From the NCBI GenBank assembly GCA_019694215.1, contig JAIBCK010000013.1:1-49197 (forward strand): DNA of 49,197 nt, given 5' to 3'. Under the pieces are notes generated by a model that was given only the letters and a program-made list of their open reading frames with translations, was not told the DNA's origin and made no database searches. Position 1 is the stretch's first letter. Every line of letters begins with the position of its first letter. Below are positions 6,420-33,031 of the stretch, one piece after another. The translations under genes were made by a program, and so were the position numbers. Source of the DNA: Thermoflexales bacterium (GTDB lineage Bacteria > Chloroflexota > Anaerolineae > J036 > Brachytrichaceae).

Positions 6420-9341
6420 ATGCCCGCCAAGTTGCCGCCCGACCTAAAGCGCGACCTCAAGGCCGCGTTGCTGCTCGACCTGGACGTGAACCGAAGCGAC
6501 GTCAAGCATCAGGTCAGTGAACGCACGCGATACCGGATTGGTTGGGGAGACAGTGTCAGCGCGGCGGAGCTGGCCGATAAGCTCTTCGATCAGGCCATGT
6601 TGTCGGACTGGCTGGCCATCCTGACGGCTTGCCGCGAGCGCGATGTCATGGCTGCCCATGTCGCCACGTTCGATGGTCTGATCACCCGGGTGAAGGCGCT
6701 GGCGTCCACACCGGCCGATCTGAGCGAGGATAGGTTTGCGGCCTATCATGAGCGCCGGATCAGGCACTGGCGCGACACGGTACAGATCGACACCCGCTTT
6801 GTGCGCCTCACCCTCGTTCAGCAACAAGCCGGCGCGGCCGGACCCGGCGGGATGGGCGGCGGAGCGCCGGATGTGTATACCGACTTGTGGGCGCTTGTTG
6901 AAAACACCGGTGCCGGTTGCCTCATGATCCTGGGCGAGCCGGGCGCGGGGAAGAGCACGCTACTTCGGCGCCTTCAGTTTGACATGGCCAGCGCCGCCCG
7001 AAATGGCGAGCCCGTTCCGGTGACCTTCTTCGTGCCGCTGTACTTGTATCCACGCGGCGAGCGCGATCCACGGGCCTGGCTCGCCCGCGAATGGGAGCGC
7101 CAGTACAGCGACCTCGACGCCTTTGAAACGCTGGTCCAGGCGGGAAAACTGTGGCTGCTTCTGGACGGGCTGAATGAACTGAAGCGCGAGGATGCCCGCG
7201 ATCTGGCGGCGCGCAACGAACATTGGCGCGACATGCTGCCGGGCCTGGTCGAACACGGCAACCGCGTCATCGTCACCCGGCGCCGGTCGGACGAGGAATT
7301 GACCTGGGACGGCCCCCAGGTCAAGGTGCAGCGCGTGGCGGTTAGCCCGATGAGCGACGACGTGATCCAGGAATTCCTGGTCGCCTATCTTGGCGACGTC
7401 GCCCGGCCCGTGTGGAAGGCGATTCGGAAAGACCCCAAGCTGCTCGATCTTTTTCGAACCCCCTATTTCCTGCGCATGCTGACGGATCTGGGCGAGGTGA
7501 AGGCCGACGGCAAGGTGCCGTCCGGGCGGGCCGACTTGTTTACCCGGGGTCTGCGCCATGCGTTCCAGCGCGAGGCCATCGACAAGGCCATGCCGTTGCT
7601 GCGGGACCCCGGCATCTTGACGCTAGCGGAGCGTGAGCGGCTGCGACACAACAACGAACGTCTTGCATGGCAGGGATTTGACCTGCCCCACAGCCCGGTG
7701 GTCGCGGCAATGAAGACGCTTGCCTTTCGCATGCGCCGGGCCGGCCGTCGCGTCAGCGTCGAAACCGAGCAGGCCCGCGCGTGGATTGCCCATCCGCGGG
7801 CCGACGATCTGCTGGCCGCCGCCGCGGACCTCGGCGTCCTGAAGCGTCCCGATCTCGTCGGGGCGGCGGCCCCGGGCGACCAGGTGACGTTCTCGCACGA
7901 GTTGATGCAGGAATACTTTGCGGCGCGGCAGCTTGCCGAACCCGGGCAAATCGGCTCAATCATCGATGCCTTGCGCGTTCCATGGAAGGCGCACAACATC
8001 TTCAAACGCTGGCGCGACAACCGCCGGCGCAGGGTGGGCGAGGCGGGTACGCGGGTGGAGGAACCGCCTTTGCCAACGACCAACTGGGAGGAGATCGCCC
8101 CGATGGCGGCCGAAATGCTCCCCCCGGAACAGGCGGAAGCATTCATCGAACGGATTGCGGCCGTCAACCTGGCGCTGGCCGGACGGAGTGCGGCCGCGCC
8201 GGGGGTTCGCCTCAGCGAACAAGGCAGACAGTCGCTGCAAGATCGCCTTCTCCGCCGGATGCAGTCTGAAAGGGCGAATCTGCGCTCACGTGTGGCGGTC
8301 GGAATCGCCCTCGGCCAACTTGGCGATCCTCGCTTTGAACGAGGTGAAGGGCCATATGGTCCCTACTTGCTGCCGCCACGGATCATCGTGCCGAGCGGCG
8401 TCTATACGATTGGCGACAACGCGAGCGACCAGACCGACGAGCGGCCCGCCCATTCCGTTACTCTGCAAGCATTCGAGCTTGCCAAATTCCCGGTGACCAA
8501 TGCCGAGTATCGGCTGTTCATCGACGCCGGCGGATATACCGAGGCCTTTGATTGGTGTTGGGAGACCGAGGCGGCCAAGGCCTGGCGGGCGGCGGGGACA
8601 GGATCCGGAAGCGCGCGAGCGTTGAGCCTGCGGCACTACCGCCGTCGCTTTGCGCAAAAGGCCTACGAACCCAGCGAAGGCAACATCCAGACCCTCATGG
8701 GGTGGGGATATTCGCGTGAAGACGCGGAGTCGATGTTTTTCAGAGACGATGCTCAGTTTGAGGCATACCTTTCAACGGCCATTCGCGACGAGGTGTCGAC
8801 TGAACCCCTGTTCTGGCACGACCCGCGCTTCAGCGCGCCCAATCAGCCAGTCGTGGGCGTGACCTGGCATGAGGCCCGCGCCTATTGCGCGTGGTTGAGC
8901 GCTCAGGATGGAAAGCGCCGGTTCCGCTTGCCAACTGAAGCGGAGCGTGAGGCGGCGGCCCGCGGCCTGGCCGGTCGGCGCTATGCCTATGGCAGGCGAT
9001 TTGACCCGACCCGGGCCGTTGTGTGGACCAGCGGGCTCGACGCCCCAGTGCCGGTCGGTCTTCTGCCGAGGGGCGACACCCCCAAAGGGTCGGGGGGGGG
9101 GATATCCGATCTGGCCGGAAACGTCGTGGATTGGACCAGTTCGCTGTACACAAAGGATTACTCGGCGTCCGGAATCGCTGTAGAGGATCCGAACTCCGAT
9201 GCGTCCCGGGCGCTGCGCGGCGGGTCGTGGCTCAACCTTCCGGACATCGCGCGCGCGGCGTATCGCGACGGGGACTTTCCGAACGACCGCAACGACGGCA
9301 TCGGTTTTCGGCTTGTGTGCGCCCCTGTTCACCCCCTCTGA
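6420..9341 (+). CDS. EAD-NACHT-FGE protein, DGR target 1 (caspase-linked NLR-like sensor)
   Basis: 973 residues. The N-terminal ~90 residues are helical and EAD1-like (AELADKLFDQAMLSDWLAIL). A NACHT/STAND NTPase follows, with Walker A GEPGAGKST (172-180) and Walker B LWLLLDGLNE (244-253), then helical NACHT-associated regions to about 640. Residues ~655-973 form an FGE-sulfatase (formylglycine-generating-enzyme) domain of C-type-lectin fold, with the signatures VVGVTWHEARAYCAWLS, RLPTEAERE and DLAGNVVDW. This is the fold usually diversified by retroelements. The C-terminus from residue ~932 is VR1 (9210-9324). A G10 run at 9092-9101 lies inside the FGE domain. It follows the caspase gene by 11 bp with RBS GAGGTGAT. 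I infer that it senses a ligand through the lectin fold and oligomerises to activate the caspase. FGE enzymatic activity is not implied. Confidence 0.92.
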   Translation: MPAKLPPDLKRDLKAALLLDLDVNRSDVKHQVSERTRYRIGWGDSVSAAELADKLFDQAMLSDWLAILTACRERDVMAAHVATFDGLITRVKALASTPADLSEDRFAAYHERRIRHWRDTVQIDTRFVRLTLVQQQAGAAGPGGMGGGAPDVYTDLWALVENTGAGCLMILGEPGAGKSTLLRRLQFDMASAARNGEPVPVTFFVPLYLYPRGERDPRAWLAREWERQYSDLDAFETLVQAGKLWLLLDGLNELKREDARDLAARNEHWRDMLPGLVEHGNRVIVTRRRSDEELTWDGPQVKVQRVAVSPMSDDVIQEFLVAYLGDVARPVWKAIRKDPKLLDLFRTPYFLRMLTDLGEVKADGKVPSGRADLFTRGLRHAFQREAIDKAMPLLRDPGILTLAERERLRHNNERLAWQGFDLPHSPVVAAMKTLAFRMRRAGRRVSVETEQARAWIAHPRADDLLAAAADLGVLKRPDLVGAAAPGDQVTFSHELMQEYFAARQLAEPGQIGSIIDALRVPWKAHNIFKRWRDNRRRRVGEAGTRVEEPPLPTTNWEEIAPMAAEMLPPEQAEAFIERIAAVNLALAGRSAAAPGVRLSEQGRQSLQDRLLRRMQSERANLRSRVAVGIALGQLGDPRFERGEGPYGPYLLPPRIIVPSGVYTIGDNASDQTDERPAHSVTLQAFELAKFPVTNAEYRLFIDAGGYTEAFDWCWETEAAKAWRAAGTGSGSARALSLRHYRRRFAQKAYEPSEGNIQTLMGWGYSREDAESMFFRDDAQFEAYLSTAIRDEVSTEPLFWHDPRFSAPNQPVVGVTWHEARAYCAWLSAQDGKRRFRLPTEAEREAAARGLAGRRYAYGRRFDPTRAVVWTSGLDAPVPVGLLPRGDTPKGSGGGISDLAGNVVDWTSSLYTKDYSASGIAVEDPNSDASRALRGGSWLNLPDIARAAYRDGDFPNDRNDGIGFRLVCAPVHPL
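9092..9101 (+). repeat. G10 homopolymer inside DGR target 1
   Basis: Ten consecutive G residues encode part of KGSGGGISDL in the FGE domain, 108 bp before VR1. As written the tract keeps the frame. Loss or gain of one base would remove the VR-encoded C-terminus. A matching C9 tract lies in target 2. An assembly error in the run length is possible. Confidence 0.7.
9210..9324 (+). repeat. DGR variable repeat VR1 with IMH
   Basis: This 115-bp segment at the 3' end of target 1 aligns without gaps to TR (offset 288). Fourteen of the fifteen differences fall on TR adenines (for example AAC to CTC, AAT to CTT, AAC to GAC, AAT to TTT, AAC to GGC). The remaining one, a G/C difference at 9218, lies in the 5' boundary. 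The last ~25 bases (from ATCGGTTTTCGG) are identical to TR and form the initiation-of-mutagenic-homing (IMH) region. Confidence 0.97.
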
Positions 9342-9393
9342 GCTCTGTTCCTTGGCTCTCTGTACCTCTGGGGTTCTGGCGCTGGGAGGGGGT

Positions 9394-9417
9394 GCAGGGG
9401 GAGGCCTCTCCCCCTGC
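9394..9417 (+). promoter_or_regulatory. Post-VR1 cruciform/hairpin (retrohoming element)
   Basis: A perfect 10-bp stem GCAGGGGGAG / CTCCCCCTGC has a 4-base loop GCCT and lies 69 bp after VR1. The same hairpin with the same spacing follows VR2 (11337-11360) and is absent after TR. In Bordetella phage BPP-1, a stem-loop just downstream of the VR stimulates retrohoming, so this is the likely counterpart. It may also terminate the caspase-NACHT mRNA. Confidence 0.8.
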
Positions 9418-9451
9418 CGAAAAACGATCACGGATTCTGTGGATCTCGGGG

Positions 9452-9457
9452 TATGAT
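9452..9457 (+). promoter_or_regulatory. Candidate -10 element for TR RNA
   Basis: TATGAT lies 40 bp before TR on the coding strand of TR and RT. Initiation about 7 bases later would give a short leader before TR. No -35 match is visible. The hexamer resembles the -10 boxes seen before leaderless genes elsewhere in this window. Confidence 0.35.
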
Positions 9458-9497
9458 CGGGCCCGTTGGGCGCATGCCCATCAGGCCGTTCGGGAGG

Positions 9498-9612
9498 GCG
9501 CTGCGGGGCGGGTCGTGGAACAACAATCCAGACATCGCGCGCGCGGCGTATCGCAACAGGAACAATCCGAACAACCGCAACAACAACATCGGTTTTCGGC
9601 TTGTGTGCGCCC
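9498..9612 (+). repeat. DGR template repeat (TR)
   Basis: This 115-bp non-coding template holds eleven AAY codons and one AGG in the VR reading frame (it would read [17 protein letters not shown], then an Asn-rich stretch). That is the codon design that lets adenine mutagenesis reach many residues without creating stops. Its IMH* end (to GCGCCC at 9612) matches both VRs, then diverges at once (A at 9613 where both VRs have C). TR lies between target 1 and avd, on the same strand as RT and 615 bp before it. It carries no downstream hairpin, which is consistent with one-way transfer from TR to VR. Confidence 0.97.
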
Positions 9613-9860
9613 ATGTTCTTTCGCCCCTTCTTCTGGGCCGGCGCTTCCACGGCCGGTCGGCGCGGTGCCGCGCAACTCGCGCTGCCGTGTTCCGGAAATG
9701 CCCGCTCATGGCGGTTCAGTGCCGCTGTCATCGGGCCGAGGCGAAGGAGGAAGAACAGCGCCGAACGTGTCTGGTCCGCGCGCAGGAACGGGGCGGCACA
9801 CAGGGACGCCGCCCGCGCCGGGCGCATACGAAAACCAGGGCGTAGCCTGGCGCATGCCCG

Positions 9861-10208
9861 CTACGCCCGTCCCTGGGTGTGCTTCAACCAGCCGCCCAGC
9901 AATCGGCCGATCTCGGCGACCATCGCGCTGACGTGAGCATACTGGCCGGTGTTCAGCCAGTCCCATTGACGGGCCAGCCTCAGATACAGCCGGAGTTTGT
10001 TCAGGTGGGCGTCGGCCGCCTGCAAGTGGGTGAGCCGAACCGGTCCCTTGCGGGCGTTTGCCTCGTAGAGAGCCTCGCTGAGATCAAGCGCGGCCCCTTG
10101 CAGCCGTTGGGTCACCGCAAAACGCTGGGACTTTGGAAAACGGTCACAATGCGGAATGAGCCAATTCAACAGATCGTAGGCTCGGGTGAAGATGACCATA
10201 TCGTCCAT
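9861..10208 (-). CDS. avd: DGR accessory variability determinant (Avd-like four-helix protein)
   Basis: 115 residues from ATG 10208 (MDDMVIFTRAYDLLNWLIPH). Residues such as FPKSQRFAVTQRLQ, LDLSEALYEAN, ADAHLNKLRLYLRLA and MVAEIGRLLGGWLKH are the hallmarks of the Avd/23S-IVP four-helix bundle. In other DGRs, Avd is a basic pentameric barrel that binds the RT and the TR RNA. It is required for mutagenic cDNA synthesis. A -10-like TACATT (10220-10215) leaves only 6 bases before the ATG, so the mRNA should be leaderless. This argues for the 10208 start over an upstream in-frame ATG at 10292 that would overlap RT. The gene is oriented opposite to TR and RT and lies between them, which is not the usual avd-TR-RT order. 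Confidence 0.92.
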   Translation of the reverse strand: MDDMVIFTRAYDLLNWLIPHCDRFPKSQRFAVTQRLQGAALDLSEALYEANARKGPVRLTHLQAADAHLNKLRLYLRLARQWDWLNTGQYAHVSAMVAEIGRLLGGWLKHTQGRA

Positions 10209-10214
10209 GCCGTG

Positions 10215-10220
10215 AATGTA
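10215..10220 (-). promoter_or_regulatory. Leaderless -10 box of avd
   Basis: TACATT on the minus strand, with a 6-base spacer to the avd ATG at 10208. It overlaps the 19-bp gap between the divergent avd and RT start codons. Confidence 0.5.
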
Positions 10221-10227
10221 ACAGCCC

Positions 10228-11292
10228 ATGTGGGACCTGCTGACCTCCTGGGACAACCTTTGGCTTGCGTTCGGCAAGGCCGCCCGCGGCAAACGGGGCG
10301 GATTGTCCGTGGCCGCCTTTGAGCACCAACTCGCCGATCATCTGCTGTCTCTGCAGGCCGAGCTGCGAGACGGAACCTATCGGCTCGGCGCGTATCGCCA
10401 CTTCGTCATCCATGAACCCAAGCGCCGCAGGATCAGCGCCGCACCGTTTCGAGACCGGGTCGTGCACCATGCGCTATGCAACCTGATCGAGCCCGTCTTT
10501 GACGCGCGCTTCATCGACCACAGCTACGCCAATCGGGTTGGCAAGGGCACCCACCGAGCCGTCGACCAACTTCAGATCTGGGCGAAGCGCTATCGGTATG
10601 CGTTGCGGATGGATGTCGTGCAGCACTTCCCTTCACTCGATCACGGCGTGCTGCGGGCCGAGATTGGGCGGGTTGTCTCAGATGAACGGACACTCGCATT
10701 GGTGGATCAGATTCTGGCCAGCGGCGCGGGTGTGCTGGCGGGCGAATACACCCCGGTGTATTTCGCTGGTGACGATCTATTCGCGGCCAACCGCCAGCGC
10801 GGCCTTCCCATCGGTAATCTGACCTCCCAGTTCTGGTCAAACGTCTACATGAACGATCTGGACCAGTTTGTCACCCGCGAATTGGGATGCGCCGCCTACT
10901 TGCGTTACGTCGACGACTTCTGCCTGTTCAGCGACAGCAAGCGCGCGCTGTGGGCCTGGCACACACGCATCATTGGGCGTCTCGCCGGCCTGCGCCTGAC
11001 CGCCCACGAGCGCGAAGCGCAAGTGATGCCGGCGACGCAGGGAATCCCGTGGCTGGGCTTCGTGGTGTATCCAGATCGGCGGCTGCTCAAGCGCCGCAAC
11101 GCGGTTGCCTTCACCCGCCGGTTGCGCAACGCCCTCGATCTGTATCAATTGGGCCGCATTTCGTTCGCCGAATTGGATGCCAGCATCCAGGGCTGGATCA
11201 ACCACGTCCGCTATGCTGACACATGGGGACTGCGGGAGCATATTCTCGAAAGCAATCCCATTGGCCGCCGGTCTTCCGTGACGACTCCATGA
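10228..11292 (+). CDS. DGR-type reverse transcriptase
   Basis: 354 residues, a typical DGR RT length. The N-terminus ([19 protein letters not shown]) and the [20 protein letters not shown] motif are retron/DGR-like. RT motif 4 is [13 protein letters not shown] (residues 193-205), with the DGR-diagnostic IGNLTSQ in place of the QG-x3-SP of group II introns. The catalytic YVDD is at residues 227-230. The thumb segment [17 protein letters not shown] and a C-terminal helix pair follow. The enzyme copies TR RNA into cDNA with adenine-specific errors. Its ATG is 19 bp from the divergent avd ATG with no clear RBS, so it may be translated from a transcript that starts before TR. It ends 120 bp before the convergent target 2. 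Confidence 0.96.
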
Positions 11293-11336
11293 TCCGTGCC
11301 ATCCGCAGTCTCCGGATCCTCCATGATCGTTTTTCG

Positions 11337-11360
11337 GCAGGGGGAGAGGCCTCCCCCTGC
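11337..11360 (-). promoter_or_regulatory. Post-VR2 cruciform/hairpin (retrohoming element)
   Basis: The same perfect 10-bp stem and 4-base loop as after VR1, here 69 bp beyond VR2 on its strand. About 105 bp on from the VR, including the hairpin and the flanking CGAAAAACGATCA, is nearly identical between the two targets. Lying between convergent RT and target 2, it may also act as a bidirectional terminator. Confidence 0.8.
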
Positions 11361-11412
11361 ACCCCCTCCCAGAGCCAGAACCCCAGAGGTACAGAGCACT
11401 GAGAAACAGAGC

Positions 11413-14400
11413 TCAGAGGGGGTGAACAGGGGCGCACACAAGCCGAAAACCGATGCCGCCGTCGAAGCGGTCGTTCGGATCGTTCCTGAAGCGATACGCC
11501 GCGCGCGCGATGCCTGGACTGTCGTTCCACGACCCGCCCCGCAGCGGCCGGGACGCATCACCTAAAAGCGTTGTGCGGTCCGGATTCTCGTACTCGTTCA
11601 GACACCACTCCCAAACGTTGCCGGTCAGATCCAGCACGGCCTCAGGCCGGGGGGGGGCCCCATTCGGATACATCCCGACTGCGCTGGTCAAGCCAATGCT
11701 CTCGTCTATGTTTCCCTTGGCTGCATCGTACTCTCCCGGATAGGCATACGCACGCCCCTTTGTGCCGCGCGCCGCACGCTCCCACTCGTATTCGGTCGGC
11801 AACCGCACGTCGTATCCCAGCCGCGCTGACAGCCATCTGCAATACGCAACCGCGTCATACCAGCTTACACATTCGCGCGGATGATTCCAATACGGGAAGG
11901 CTTGATTGCCTGGTTGCGCGCGGTGCTTCTCGTCGGCACTCAGGCCCTCCCACCAGCGCGGGTTCGACCAGCCCTCTGCGGCGTCCAAAAAGGCCTGGAA
12001 TTGGGCATACGTCACCGGATATCGGGCGATGTGAAACGATTCGACCCTGCGCGTTCCCTTCTGGTAGATGAAGTCGCCGCCTTGGATAGGCACCCAGTCA
12101 ATCTCGGGCGTGGGCACATGGTCGCGATCGGCTCCCACGATGGCGCGCACGCCCGGCCGGTTGTCGAGCGTTTCGCCCGTGGTGAGCCTCAGCACGCCCA
12201 GCGCCCGGCCGACGGCCGCGCGAGCCCGCGGAGCCGGGTCGCGCTCGAGGTCGGTCAGGCGCGGCAGCCAGCCCGCGCGCAGCTCAAGCAGCAGGGAGTC
12301 GGGGACATCGGCGCCGCTGTCAAGGATGCATCGGGCCGCCACTTCCGGGTTGGCCTCGGCCAGCCAACGCAGCACCGGCGCACAGTTGTCGGCCTGCATG
12401 CCGGTCAACAAGACCGCCGCTTCCTCCCAGCCACTGCGCTCCCACCACCGATCCGGCGGCCACAGTTCGGATGCGCGCAGCCGGCCGGCCTCGATCTCGG
12501 CCAGCATCTTGCGGGCGGCGAAGTATTCCTGCAGCAGCTGATGGGTAAAACGGACCTGATCGCCAAGGGTGATCAGACTCGCGCTGGCGGCCAGAGACAA
12601 CGCGGTCTCGTCCAAATGGCGGCGTGCCTCGCTCAACGCCATCGCAGTCGTGGCGGTCTTGCCGTTGTCCTGATCCCGATCTGTCCGGGCAGCCCTGGCG
12701 CTGCGCTGCATCGCATAGGCCAGGCCCGCGAGGCGGTCCAGGAGTCTGGCTGCGTGCTCGGGCAGCGCAACGGTGCCCGAGCCTTTGTCCCTCTCGGCCA
12801 GGCGTTCGCGCAACAACAACACCTCGATGAACTCGGCAAACAGGCTAGCCCGATTGGCGGGCAGGCGCTCGTTCCTGTTTCTGCGATAGACCTGGACCAG
12901 CATCGATAGCATGTACGGGTTTTCGGCCAGCTTGATCAGCGCGGCGGGCGCCCGAATGTGCTTGCGCCAGGCGTCATCATCGACGCGCAGAGTTGAGTGA
13001 AAGACATCGGGATCGTCGCGTGGGATGTCGGTGGCCGTAAAGAACAGATCGAAGCTGGCACCTGCTGCGCGCCATTTCTCCCAGACCGGTTTCAGGTTTC
13101 CGGCGAGCTCCCAGAAGAACGTTTCGCCTTCCTCGGACCCAAGATACCTTTGCGCGAACTCCAGAATGCGCCCGGCATCCAGGGGCCGGATGGTCACCCG
13201 ATCCAGGCGCAGGTCCTGGCCTTCATAATCCTGCTTGCGGCAGGTCACGAGGGTCATCAGGTCCCGTTGCGGCGCGGCCTGCACGAAGGTCCGCAGCAGG
13301 CCGACCTTCCGTTTGCGCTGGGCGACTGGGATTTCGTTCAGCCCATCGAGCAGGAGAACGGCCTTGCCCTCCGTCAACAGCGCATCCAGATGCGCGCCCA
13401 GCCCGCCCATCTGGCTGGCGATGAGTTTGGCCAACGTTTGCTCAGCGTCGGTCCACTTGCCCAGCTTTACCAGTAGCGGAATCGGCGCGCGCGGATCGCG
13501 CCTGGCGGTGTCGACAAGCCGCCGCGCCACCGTCCACAGGACGGTGCTCTTGCCCGCGCCCGGTTCGCCCAGCACGGCCGCCCTGCGAATGGCCATCAAC
13601 TCCTCGGCCGCATTGGTGAACACGCGCGGCGTTGCGTTCATATCCGCCGCCGTGCGCCAGGCCAGATGCTCAAACTCCTGACGTTGGACGACGCTCTCGA
13701 GATCCGCAATCGGGCGCGCAACGGTCTGTGTGCTCCCCGCCAGCGCGACGTACTTGTCGGTATTGCGCAGTTCTTCGAACAACAGCCGATCCAGGTATTC
13801 CAATTCCAGGACCCGCCGCGAATCGAGCATTTCACGGGTGGCCTTGCTGGCCACGGGACCCGGAGCTGGTGGGTGGGGCAAAGCGGCCACGACGTTTGCC
13901 GGCCCTGTGTCAGCGGTATCCCCGTACCACGTGATGTACTGGTATCCGTGCAGGCCAAAGAAATCGACTCCGCCAGCGCAGTCTTCGAGCAGCACCGGCA
14001 CAATCAGTTTGCCCTTGATCTTCGCCCAGACAACTTCGTCCCGCACCCAGGGGCTGCGCATCGTGTCGCTGCTGCACAGGACCACGACGGCATAGGCATT
14101 GTTGACGGCCTCGCCGATGGCGCCCAACCAGTCCTCACCACCATTGATGTTTAAGGTGTCAATCCAGACGGTGTGTCCGGCGGCCCGGAGGGCGGCCACG
14201 AGCCTCTTGGCGGGGGTTGCGTCGGCATGCAGGTAGCTGATGAAGACACTCGGCAGCCGCTCGTCGCGCGGGGTTTCCGCGCTCTGCACAGGCGCCTGGT
14301 GGATCGGCGCAACCGCGTCCTGTGGCGGGGCGGTGGCGCGTGGTCGTGCCTCTTGCGCGCAAAGGCCATTGCTCAGCGTTATTAGCTCGCCGATCTTAGC

Positions 14401-30535: not shown

Positions 30536-33031
30536 TTACGCCTTGGGCCTTGGCACCCCAAGCGCCGCAAAGGCTGCGGCCGCGAGGGGTTCCGAGGCCG
30601 CATCGCCGGCGCGCGCGCGCCAGTGCAGGGCGTGCGCGCGCGCAAACCGATCCTCGATGGCCTCGGCGCGCGCGACGGCCTCGCCCAGCGTGTGCGCGGC
30701 CTGTGGGTCGCGCTGCGCGAGCTGGGCGCGCCCGAGCGCGGTCAGCGCATACGGCAGCGGTGCAGTCTCCTCCTGGGCCAGCGCGGTCCGCGCCAGGCGC
30801 TCCGCCTCGGCCGGATCGCCCAACGCAAGACAGGCCTCCGCGGCATTGACGCTCAGCCCGGCGATGAGGTAGGCGTGCCCCATCGGCTCCGCGACTGCCA
30901 GACCGGCGCGGGACTGCGCGAGCGCGGTCGCGGCATCGCCGTCCGTCAAGGCCGCGGCCGCCAGGTTGATGCGCAGATACAGCCCGCTCAGCGTGTCGCC
31001 CATCTCGGTCGCCAGCGTCAGGGCCTGCCCGAGCAAATCCCGCGCCCGAGTGGTCTGACCGCGCTGCCAGCACAACGTTCCGAGGCGAGATAGCGCCTCG
31101 CGCATCAGGGCGGGATTGGCCTGACCGGCCCGCGCCAGATCCAGCGCCTGTTCCAGCAGGGCCTGCGCGGGTTCAAACTGGCCGGCCTGGGTCTCGACAA
31201 AGCCACGGAAGCTGAGCGCCTGCACGTGGGCGTCCAGCGCGGCGCGCCGGGCTTGATCGAGCTCCCGCTCGCGCAGGTGGACGAAACCGATGGCCGTTTG
31301 GGCGCGGGCGGCATCGCGCTCGCGCGTCGTCGCAAACTCGCGCAGGCTCTGGCGCAGCTCGCTCAGCGCCGCATCGATGCGCCCGCGGGTCTCGAGCAGC
31401 TGGCCGCGCAGCAGGCGGGCGCTGCCCGTGGCCGGGTGTCCGCTCGGCCAGGGTGCGGCCTCCAGCGCCGCGAGCCCCTCCTCGGTATCGCCCAGCGCAC
31501 GATGCCAACCTGCGCGAAGCAAGGCGAGGGCGCGCCGATCGTCGGCCTGGGGCAGATCGGCCTCCGCCACATCCGCGAAGATGGCGCGGGCCGCCGCCCC
31601 GCGGCCCTGATGGGTCTCCGCGTCGCGATGCCGCCACCAGGTCCACACCGCCATCGCCGGTTCGCGCCCGGCGAGGTAGTGCCACGCGGCCGCCGTGAAA
31701 TCCAGGCGCTGTTCCTGTTCGCGGGCGGCCTGCAGGTGCAGCCCGGCCCGCACGTCGACGGGGACCATGGCGTGGACGAAGTCGCGCGCAAAGGTGGGCA
31801 CGCTCACACCGCCGGCACCGTCTGGGCGCAACAGCTCACGCGCGATGAGCCGGGCGTAGGCGGGATCGGCGGCGTAGACATCGGCCGGCGCACGGCCGGG
31901 ATGCACGCAGATGCGCGCGAGCAACGTGCGCTCCTCGTCCGGTAGCCGTCGCCACACCCGCCGCACCATGATTTCGAGCGTTGGCGCGGCGAGCATCTGC
32001 CGAAGGGCGCTTTCGATGGGCTCACCGGCCGCGACCAGCGCCGCGAACAAGCGCAGCAGGGCGGGGCTGCCCCGCGCGCCCTCGCGCAGACGGGCCAGCG
32101 GCTCGGCATCCAGTGTCGGCACCCCGGCCGCGGCGAGCAGCGCGTGCGTGTCCTCCGGCTCCAGCCCGCGCAACACCAGGCTGAGCGCGGGCTCGATGAC
32201 CAGCTGCTGGCCCATCAACAGCAACGCGGCCAACGGACGCAACTCCTCCAGCAAGTGGATCAGCCGGGCGTGTTCGCTGGTGTCAAAGCGCAGCAGGTCG
32301 ATCTCGTCGATGGCCAGCAGCGCCCGACCTCGCAGGGTGGCCAGATCGTGCCGCAGCAGACCGAGGATGCGGCCGGCATCCACGGCCCCCTCGGCGGCGA
32401 CCAGCTGTTGCCAGCTGAGCGCCCCACCCTGATCGCGCAGAAAGGCCGCCAGCGCGAAGACGAAGGTGTCGAACTGGTCGTTGAGCGGGGGCCGGACGGT
32501 GTACCAGAACACCGCGGGCGCGCCTTGGACGAGGCTGGCGCCGAGCGTGGTCTTGCCGATCCCGGCCGGCCCGGCGATGGCCACCGTCCCGCCCTGCGCG
32601 AGCACGGCCGCGGCGGCCTCGCGCTCGCGCGTGCGGCCGATCAGCGTCGTGCGGGGGGCGGCCTCGAGGCGCAGCGCTGGCTGCACGCGGGCGGTGAAGG
32701 CGCGCGCCAGCTCGGGCAGGATGCCGTCGCGGTGTCGATAGAAGGCGGCGCGGCTGAGGTGCAGCTGGCGGGCCAGACCGACCACGGTCAGGGCCGGGTT
32801 GCGCTGAAAGTAGGCGACATCGAGAAAATGCCGTGCCTCGGCATCCAGCGCCGCCGCGGCGCCGCGCAGACGCTCGCGCAGGGCCTGACCGCGGGCTGGC
32901 GCGTCGCCCCGGGCGGCATCGCCCAGCACATACGGCGTGGCGAGGGGGGAGTGCGCGCCCAGCCAGGCCGCGTCCCCGAAATGGTCGAGGGCGGCCTCGA
33001 GGGCTTGCAGAAATGCATCCGAGCGGGTCAT
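30536..33031 (-). CDS. HTH-NTPase-TPR (STAND/MalT-like) protein, 831 aa
   Basis: The N-terminal ~125 residues are helical and include an HTH-like LTVVGLARQLHLSRAAFYRH (81-100). The NTPase has GRTRERE, Walker A GPAGIGKTT (154-162) and Walker B ALLAIDEIDLLRF, as in MalT/AfsR-type STAND regulators. Residues ~420-831 are Ala-rich TPR-like repeats. It probably responds to an inducer by ATP-driven oligomerisation; whether it regulates transcription or acts in conflict is open. No VR-like tail is seen at its C-terminus (AAAAFAALGVPRPKA). The stop lies 46 bp before the start of the OmpR-type gene, on the same strand. Confidence 0.82.
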   Translation of the reverse strand: MTRSDAFLQALEAALDHFGDAAWLGAHSPLATPYVLGDAARGDAPARGQALRERLRGAAAALDAEARHFLDVAYFQRNPALTVVGLARQLHLSRAAFYRHRDGILPELARAFTARVQPALRLEAAPRTTLIGRTREREAAAAVLAQGGTVAIAGPAGIGKTTLGASLVQGAPAVFWYTVRPPLNDQFDTFVFALAAFLRDQGGALSWQQLVAAEGAVDAGRILGLLRHDLATLRGRALLAIDEIDLLRFDTSEHARLIHLLEELRPLAALLLMGQQLVIEPALSLVLRGLEPEDTHALLAAAGVPTLDAEPLARLREGARGSPALLRLFAALVAAGEPIESALRQMLAAPTLEIMVRRVWRRLPDEERTLLARICVHPGRAPADVYAADPAYARLIARELLRPDGAGGVSVPTFARDFVHAMVPVDVRAGLHLQAAREQEQRLDFTAAAWHYLAGREPAMAVWTWWRHRDAETHQGRGAAARAIFADVAEADLPQADDRRALALLRAGWHRALGDTEEGLAALEAAPWPSGHPATGSARLLRGQLLETRGRIDAALSELRQSLREFATTRERDAARAQTAIGFVHLRERELDQARRAALDAHVQALSFRGFVETQAGQFEPAQALLEQALDLARAGQANPALMREALSRLGTLCWQRGQTTRARDLLGQALTLATEMGDTLSGLYLRINLAAAALTDGDAATALAQSRAGLAVAEPMGHAYLIAGLSVNAAEACLALGDPAEAERLARTALAQEETAPLPYALTALGRAQLAQRDPQAAHTLGEAVARAEAIEDRFARAHALHWRARAGDAASEPLAAAAFAALGVPRPKA

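Follow-up and report, generated by a model that had tools for sequence, protein, structure and literature searches.

A predicted two-target diversity-generating retroelement in a Thermoflexales bacterium, with an adenine-only footprint and an A/C difference at the template edge

Gene content and organization of the locus

The window, i.e., the whole stretch of 49,197 nucleotides that was analysed, is one contig of a 3.4-Mb assembly in 184 contigs. Two target genes converge on a region that contains, in this order, the TR (+), a 242-nt spacer, the gene of the accessory protein Avd (-) and that of the reverse transcriptase (RT, +), as detailed in Table 1. Judged by its sequence, this set of RT, Avd, TR, spacer RNA and hairpins makes up a complete diversity-generating retroelement (DGR). 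At E <= 0.001 no second RT match was obtained in the genome. The IGNLTSQ stretch of the RT fits the (L/I/V)GxxxSQ motif defined for DGR-type RTs (PMC3521204), with YVDD also present. No further VR, FGE copy or similar RT was found elsewhere in the genome. A phage origin was set aside, the RT being at most about 36% identical to phage sequences among the matches listed.

Table 1. Coordinates and main characteristics of the features of the locus
Feature	Position	Strand	Characteristics
EAD8-caspase protein, putative effector, 516 aa	4858-6408	+	Pfam Peptidase_C14 8e-18; EAD8 7e-4, below cut-off
Target 1, NACHT-FGE/CLec protein, 973 aa	6420-9341	+	Pfam FGE-sulfatase 4e-45, NACHT 1.5e-14
VR1	9208-9330	+	From alignment with TR; C-terminus of target 1
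3' flank of VR1	9331-9434	+	Inverted copy after VR2 at 11320-11423; absent after TR
GC hairpin after VR1, GCAGGGGGAG-GCCT-CTCCCCCTGC	9394-9417	+	63 nt past VR1; cruciform-like target element
TR (template repeat)	9496-9618	+	From alignment with VRs
TR 3'-edge adenine	9613	+	C in VR1 (9325, +) and VR2 (11429, -); putative IMH*/IMH mark
TR-Avd spacer, conserved structured RNA	9619-9860	+	Consensus helices at 9598-9823
Avd accessory protein	9861-10229	-	Antisense, between TR and RT; NCBIfam NF033474 1e-28, above cut-off; PF22296 1e-21
DGR reverse transcriptase (P0003), 354 aa	10228-11292	+	RVT_1 1e-13; LPIGNLTSQ and YVDD motifs
Same GC hairpin after VR2	11337-11360	-	
Target 2, EAD8-TIR-NACHT-FGE/CLec protein, 1091 aa	11413-14688	-	Pfam FGE 6e-40, TIR_2 5e-22, EAD8 5e-10, NACHT 1.5e-9
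VR2	11549-11424	-	From alignment with TR; one extra codon, inserted bases ~11465-11467

The Avd gene has possible starts at 10229, 10208 and 10199. With the first ATG the start codons of Avd and RT overlap in CATG, and the starts at 10208 or 10199 are also possible. At 10199-10229 the two genes are arranged head to head, with starts that overlap or nearly so, and ordinary promoters would not fit in between. The same head-to-head arrangement, with close or overlapping starts, is found in many relatives.

Both targets contain PF03781 (FGE), and the VR is contained in their C-terminal CLec/FGE fold, the solved relatives of which include the Treponema variable protein 2y3c. The gene of the EAD8-caspase protein precedes target 1, and its EAD8 match reaches 1.5e-4 when the N-terminal part is used alone. 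The locus combines a target made of a STAND NTPase and a CLec VR with a neighbouring EAD-linked effector, EAD8 being carried by target 2 and, with a score below the Pfam cut-off, by the caspase gene. By analogy with known systems, the targets are probably NACHT-type sensors with C-type-lectin-like ends, linked through EAD8 to TIR and caspase effectors. Farther along the window, at 30536-33031 (-), lies the gene of a further protein, of NTPase-TPR type (AAA_22, a weak NACHT match, TPR repeats), that has neither FGE nor VR.

Substitutions between the template and the two variable repeats

The alignment of TR with VR1 is ungapped and shows 16 differences, 15 at TR adenines and, near the 5' end of the repeat, a single G>C (TR 9506). 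VR2 carries a 3-nt insertion and differs from TR at 14 positions, 13 of them adenines, the remaining one being a 5'-edge G>C at TR 9498. The variable core, defined as TR 9507-9612, holds 28 A and 78 non-A positions. Within it, all 14 differences of VR1 and all 12 of VR2 fall on adenines, with 0/78 non-A positions changed in either comparison (Fisher p = 3.8e-10 and 1.4e-8, respectively). The adenine-only footprint is genuine and is what is expected for a DGR. The first-pass annotation, made from the same DNA, had placed all 26 VR substitutions at TR adenines, which is exact for the core. For VR1 it had given the 14 core differences and the 5'-edge G/C correctly, and had missed A9613>C at the 3' edge. 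For VR2 its 12 substitutions, all at adenines, hold for the core; the G>C at TR 9498, the extra codon and A9613>C had escaped it. The eleven AAY codons that it reported in TR were found again when counted in the target reading frame.

Because the sets of changes at adenine sites differ between VR1 and VR2, the two repeats appear to have been rewritten separately. Together with the intact look of the RT, Avd, TR, spacer RNA and hairpins, this lends support to the earlier claim that the footprint reflects a DGR that has acted on both targets. This comparison of TR and VR relies, for the source species, on a single assembly; the same approach recovers the TR/VR of BPP-1, which served as control.

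Related loci

Seventy-seven RT loci were examined, the window included, and a TR-VR pair was recovered in 43. The annotation had named VR changes spread evenly over the TR bases in relatives as the observation that would speak against it. The spread is far from even: in the 42 loci outside the window 814/848 pooled differences (96%) fall on A, versus 15 on C, 12 on T and 7 on G. This figure is partly ascertained, given that a pair was retained only when 70% or more of its differences were at A. When all directed repeat pairs are taken without this filter, 44 pairs form a peak of their own at a fraction of A differences above 0.9, another 33 fall between 0.5 and 0.9, and the others lie below, the lower-scoring pairs including unrelated repeats and pairs taken in the reverse direction.

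Two layouts are common among these loci, one with TR upstream and Avd antisense, as here, and one with RT, Avd and TR all in sense; the inverted two-target layout is also found in L029 and L036. The nearest RTs are from Chloroflexota, Accumulibacter and Nitrosomonas. Locus L029 lies on a Gammaproteobacteria MAG contig and has a layout and a spacer RNA like those of the Anaerolineae loci, with an RT 72% identical, which could reflect horizontal transfer or a misbinned contig. In L057 (G022:C104) there are two Avd genes, one antisense before the RT and one in sense after it, an arrangement that may represent a transition from one layout to the other.

Spacer RNA and hairpins downstream of the variable repeats

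The spacer has a common structure in 13 loci (the window and 12 related ones), with 92% of cells paired, a percentage of which part of the excess is expected because this alignment also served to derive the structure. Compensatory changes on both sides are the stronger evidence, and these occur in 51 cells versus a mean of 16 in shuffled alignments, far above slid versions. No credible match was obtained in Rfam. The spacer RNA resembles that of BPP-1, of which it would be the equivalent in a cellular DGR.

The 3' flanks of VR1 and VR2 are identical at 97/104 positions (93%), and each contains the 10-bp GC hairpin, which is not found after TR. A perfect hairpin of at least 8 bp follows 14 of 28 VRs of the clade, versus 166 of 2400 random stretches (7%). 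In BPP-1, a GC hairpin is needed for efficient homing (PMC3240598). The loop is GCCT here versus GRNA in phage DGRs, and the hairpin stands 63 nt from the VR versus 4-34 in phage DGRs (PMC3240598).

The 3'-edge A/C difference

Beyond the conserved GFR codons, the first difference at an adenine sets a TR A against a VR C in 45/45 scorable pairs of the RT clade, where 4 of 49 pairs have no such difference inside the aligned stretch and the independent number is slightly below 45, given that some loci give two VRs. In the core, A>C makes up only 106/807 changes (13%). It is because of this contrast that the A/C edge looks like a fixed IMH*/IMH difference between donor and acceptor rather than a product of mutagenesis, which is the simplest reading. 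For the window this means that A9613>C, although located at an adenine, was probably not caused by mutagenesis. Selection at the protein level as the source of the edge was ruled out, since the edge adenine occurs at each of the three positions of a codon (8, 28 and 9 cases).

Mismatches at the corresponding place set the direction of transfer in BPP-1 (PMC3240598), with a pattern unlike that of the present locus. The corresponding edge pair is TGGAAT/TGGGGT in Nanoarchaeota (PMC4372165), and cyanobacterial DGRs have a TR/VR edge mismatch of another kind than A/C.

Codon insertions and deletions in AAY runs

VR2 is one codon longer than TR inside AACAACAAC, where it reads TTC-GAC-GGC-GGC versus AAC-AAC-AAC. 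Indels of a multiple of three were found in seven TR-VR pairs from six loci, and in 6/7 the VR is the longer partner. All seven lie inside AAY runs, which account for 20% of TR length, and this fits slippage on AAC repeats, as proposed earlier for other DGRs (PMC12875486). The other gaps (1, 2 and 11 nt) are few and are located at edges or in odd loci. Loci L060 and L085 have 2-nt TR/VR gaps, from which a frame shift is expected on homing, and which may reflect a degenerate template or a sequence error.

The extra codon of VR2 could instead have arisen without RT slippage on the AAC run, by contraction of the AAC run in TR after homing or by replication slippage on GGC in VR2. The GGC-GGC of VR2 is compatible with a duplication of GGC, and the predominance of longer VRs would be accounted for in this way. 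Nonetheless, the confinement of the in-frame indels to AAY runs and the precedent in other DGRs speak against it, the extra codons in the other loci are diversified and not duplicated, and in L082 a shorter and a longer VR go with a single TR, for which contraction of TR alone fails. This origin of the extra codon is a serious contender, to which we nevertheless give less than even weight. A working idea, to which we give slightly less than even odds, is that in this DGR lineage the 3'-edge base, fixed as A in the template and as C in all targets, would distinguish donor from acceptor and direct homing. RT slippage on AAC runs would add or remove whole codons, so that the receptor loop would vary in length and not in sequence alone.

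Interpretation and comparison with known DGRs

The footprint could in principle be a relic of past retrohoming, left by a DGR that was formerly active and is now silent. Degenerate DGR loci are known in Thiohalocapsa PB-PSB1 (PMC10907252), and the 7/104 positions that have diverged between the flanks of VR1 and VR2 are in line with this possibility. Against it stand the intact look of the RT, Avd, spacer RNA and both hairpins, and the fact that 0/78 non-A core positions differ versus 7/104 in the adjoining flank (p = 0.018), a contrast that is expected if retrohoming still resets the VRs and that coding constraint, which could also lower the core rate, may share in producing. A silent element is thus unlikely, and we infer that the DGR would be active at present. 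The VRs and their 3' flanks are clearly duplicated, but a plain duplication of the C-terminal FGE part with later positive selection, and with no retroelement involved, has practically no chance of being correct. Selection would neither restrict 26/26 changes to template adenines nor leave an untranslated AAY-rich copy beside RT and Avd, and this reading is in effect refuted by the A-only pattern of the window and of the 42 related loci.

The locus is, almost certainly, best explained as a cellular DGR that rewrites VR1 and VR2 of two NACHT-type sensors from cDNA of an adenine-mutagenized TR, an explanation built on the adenine-only footprint, the genes, the covariation of the spacer RNA, the hairpins and the A/C edge as read in the DNA. 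The + strand over TR and spacer would be transcribed as a structured RNA, which the RT with Avd would copy into cDNA, placing random bases at template adenines. This cDNA would then replace VR1 and VR2, each target being marked by a 3'-edge C, where TR has A, and by the downstream GC hairpin. The priming of the cDNA, the direction of homing and the role in sensing or defence are modelled on BPP-1 and other DGRs, and would apply here by analogy.

The closest known counterparts are the clade 5D DGRs, represented by DGR 3 and DGR 6 of Thiohalocapsa PB-PSB1 (Dore et al. 2024, PMC10907252). As here, these belong to a cellular RT lineage that includes filamentous Chloroflexi, Accumulibacter and Nitrosomonas, their two targets have the STAND NTPase in the middle and the FGE/CLec VR at the C-terminus, and EAD8 is common to a target and a peptidase protein. 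Unlike in those examples, target 2 adds TIR, the peptidase is caspase-like and the targets converge on TR-Avd-RT. The shared taxa and domains, rather than a joint tree, suggest that the present RT falls in clade 5D. With the DGR of Bordetella phage BPP-1 (Guo et al. 2011, PMC3240598; Unlu et al. 2026, PMC12875486) the locus shares adenine mutagenesis between TR and VR, Avd, RT, a GC hairpin downstream of the VR and IMH/IMH* differences at the edge; the Avd gene, antisense in the present locus, runs in sense in BPP-1, and the RTs are about 33% identical. Cyanobacterial DGRs (Nostoc, Fischerella and Acaryochloris plasmids) likewise have FGE targets and Avd, with two or three VRs per TR and RTs 41-44% identical to the present one.

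On the strength of its sequence, the locus is a well-preserved DGR of a known kind that diversifies STAND-type sensors in multicellular bacteria, of which smaller details may be undescribed. The new mechanistic detail is modest. The locus adds a clean two-target case to the DGRs that are thought to diversify immune-like sensors in filamentous or aggregating bacteria, and the A/C edge, the spacer RNA and the codon indels offer testable handles on donor and acceptor recognition and on the diversity output of cellular DGRs.
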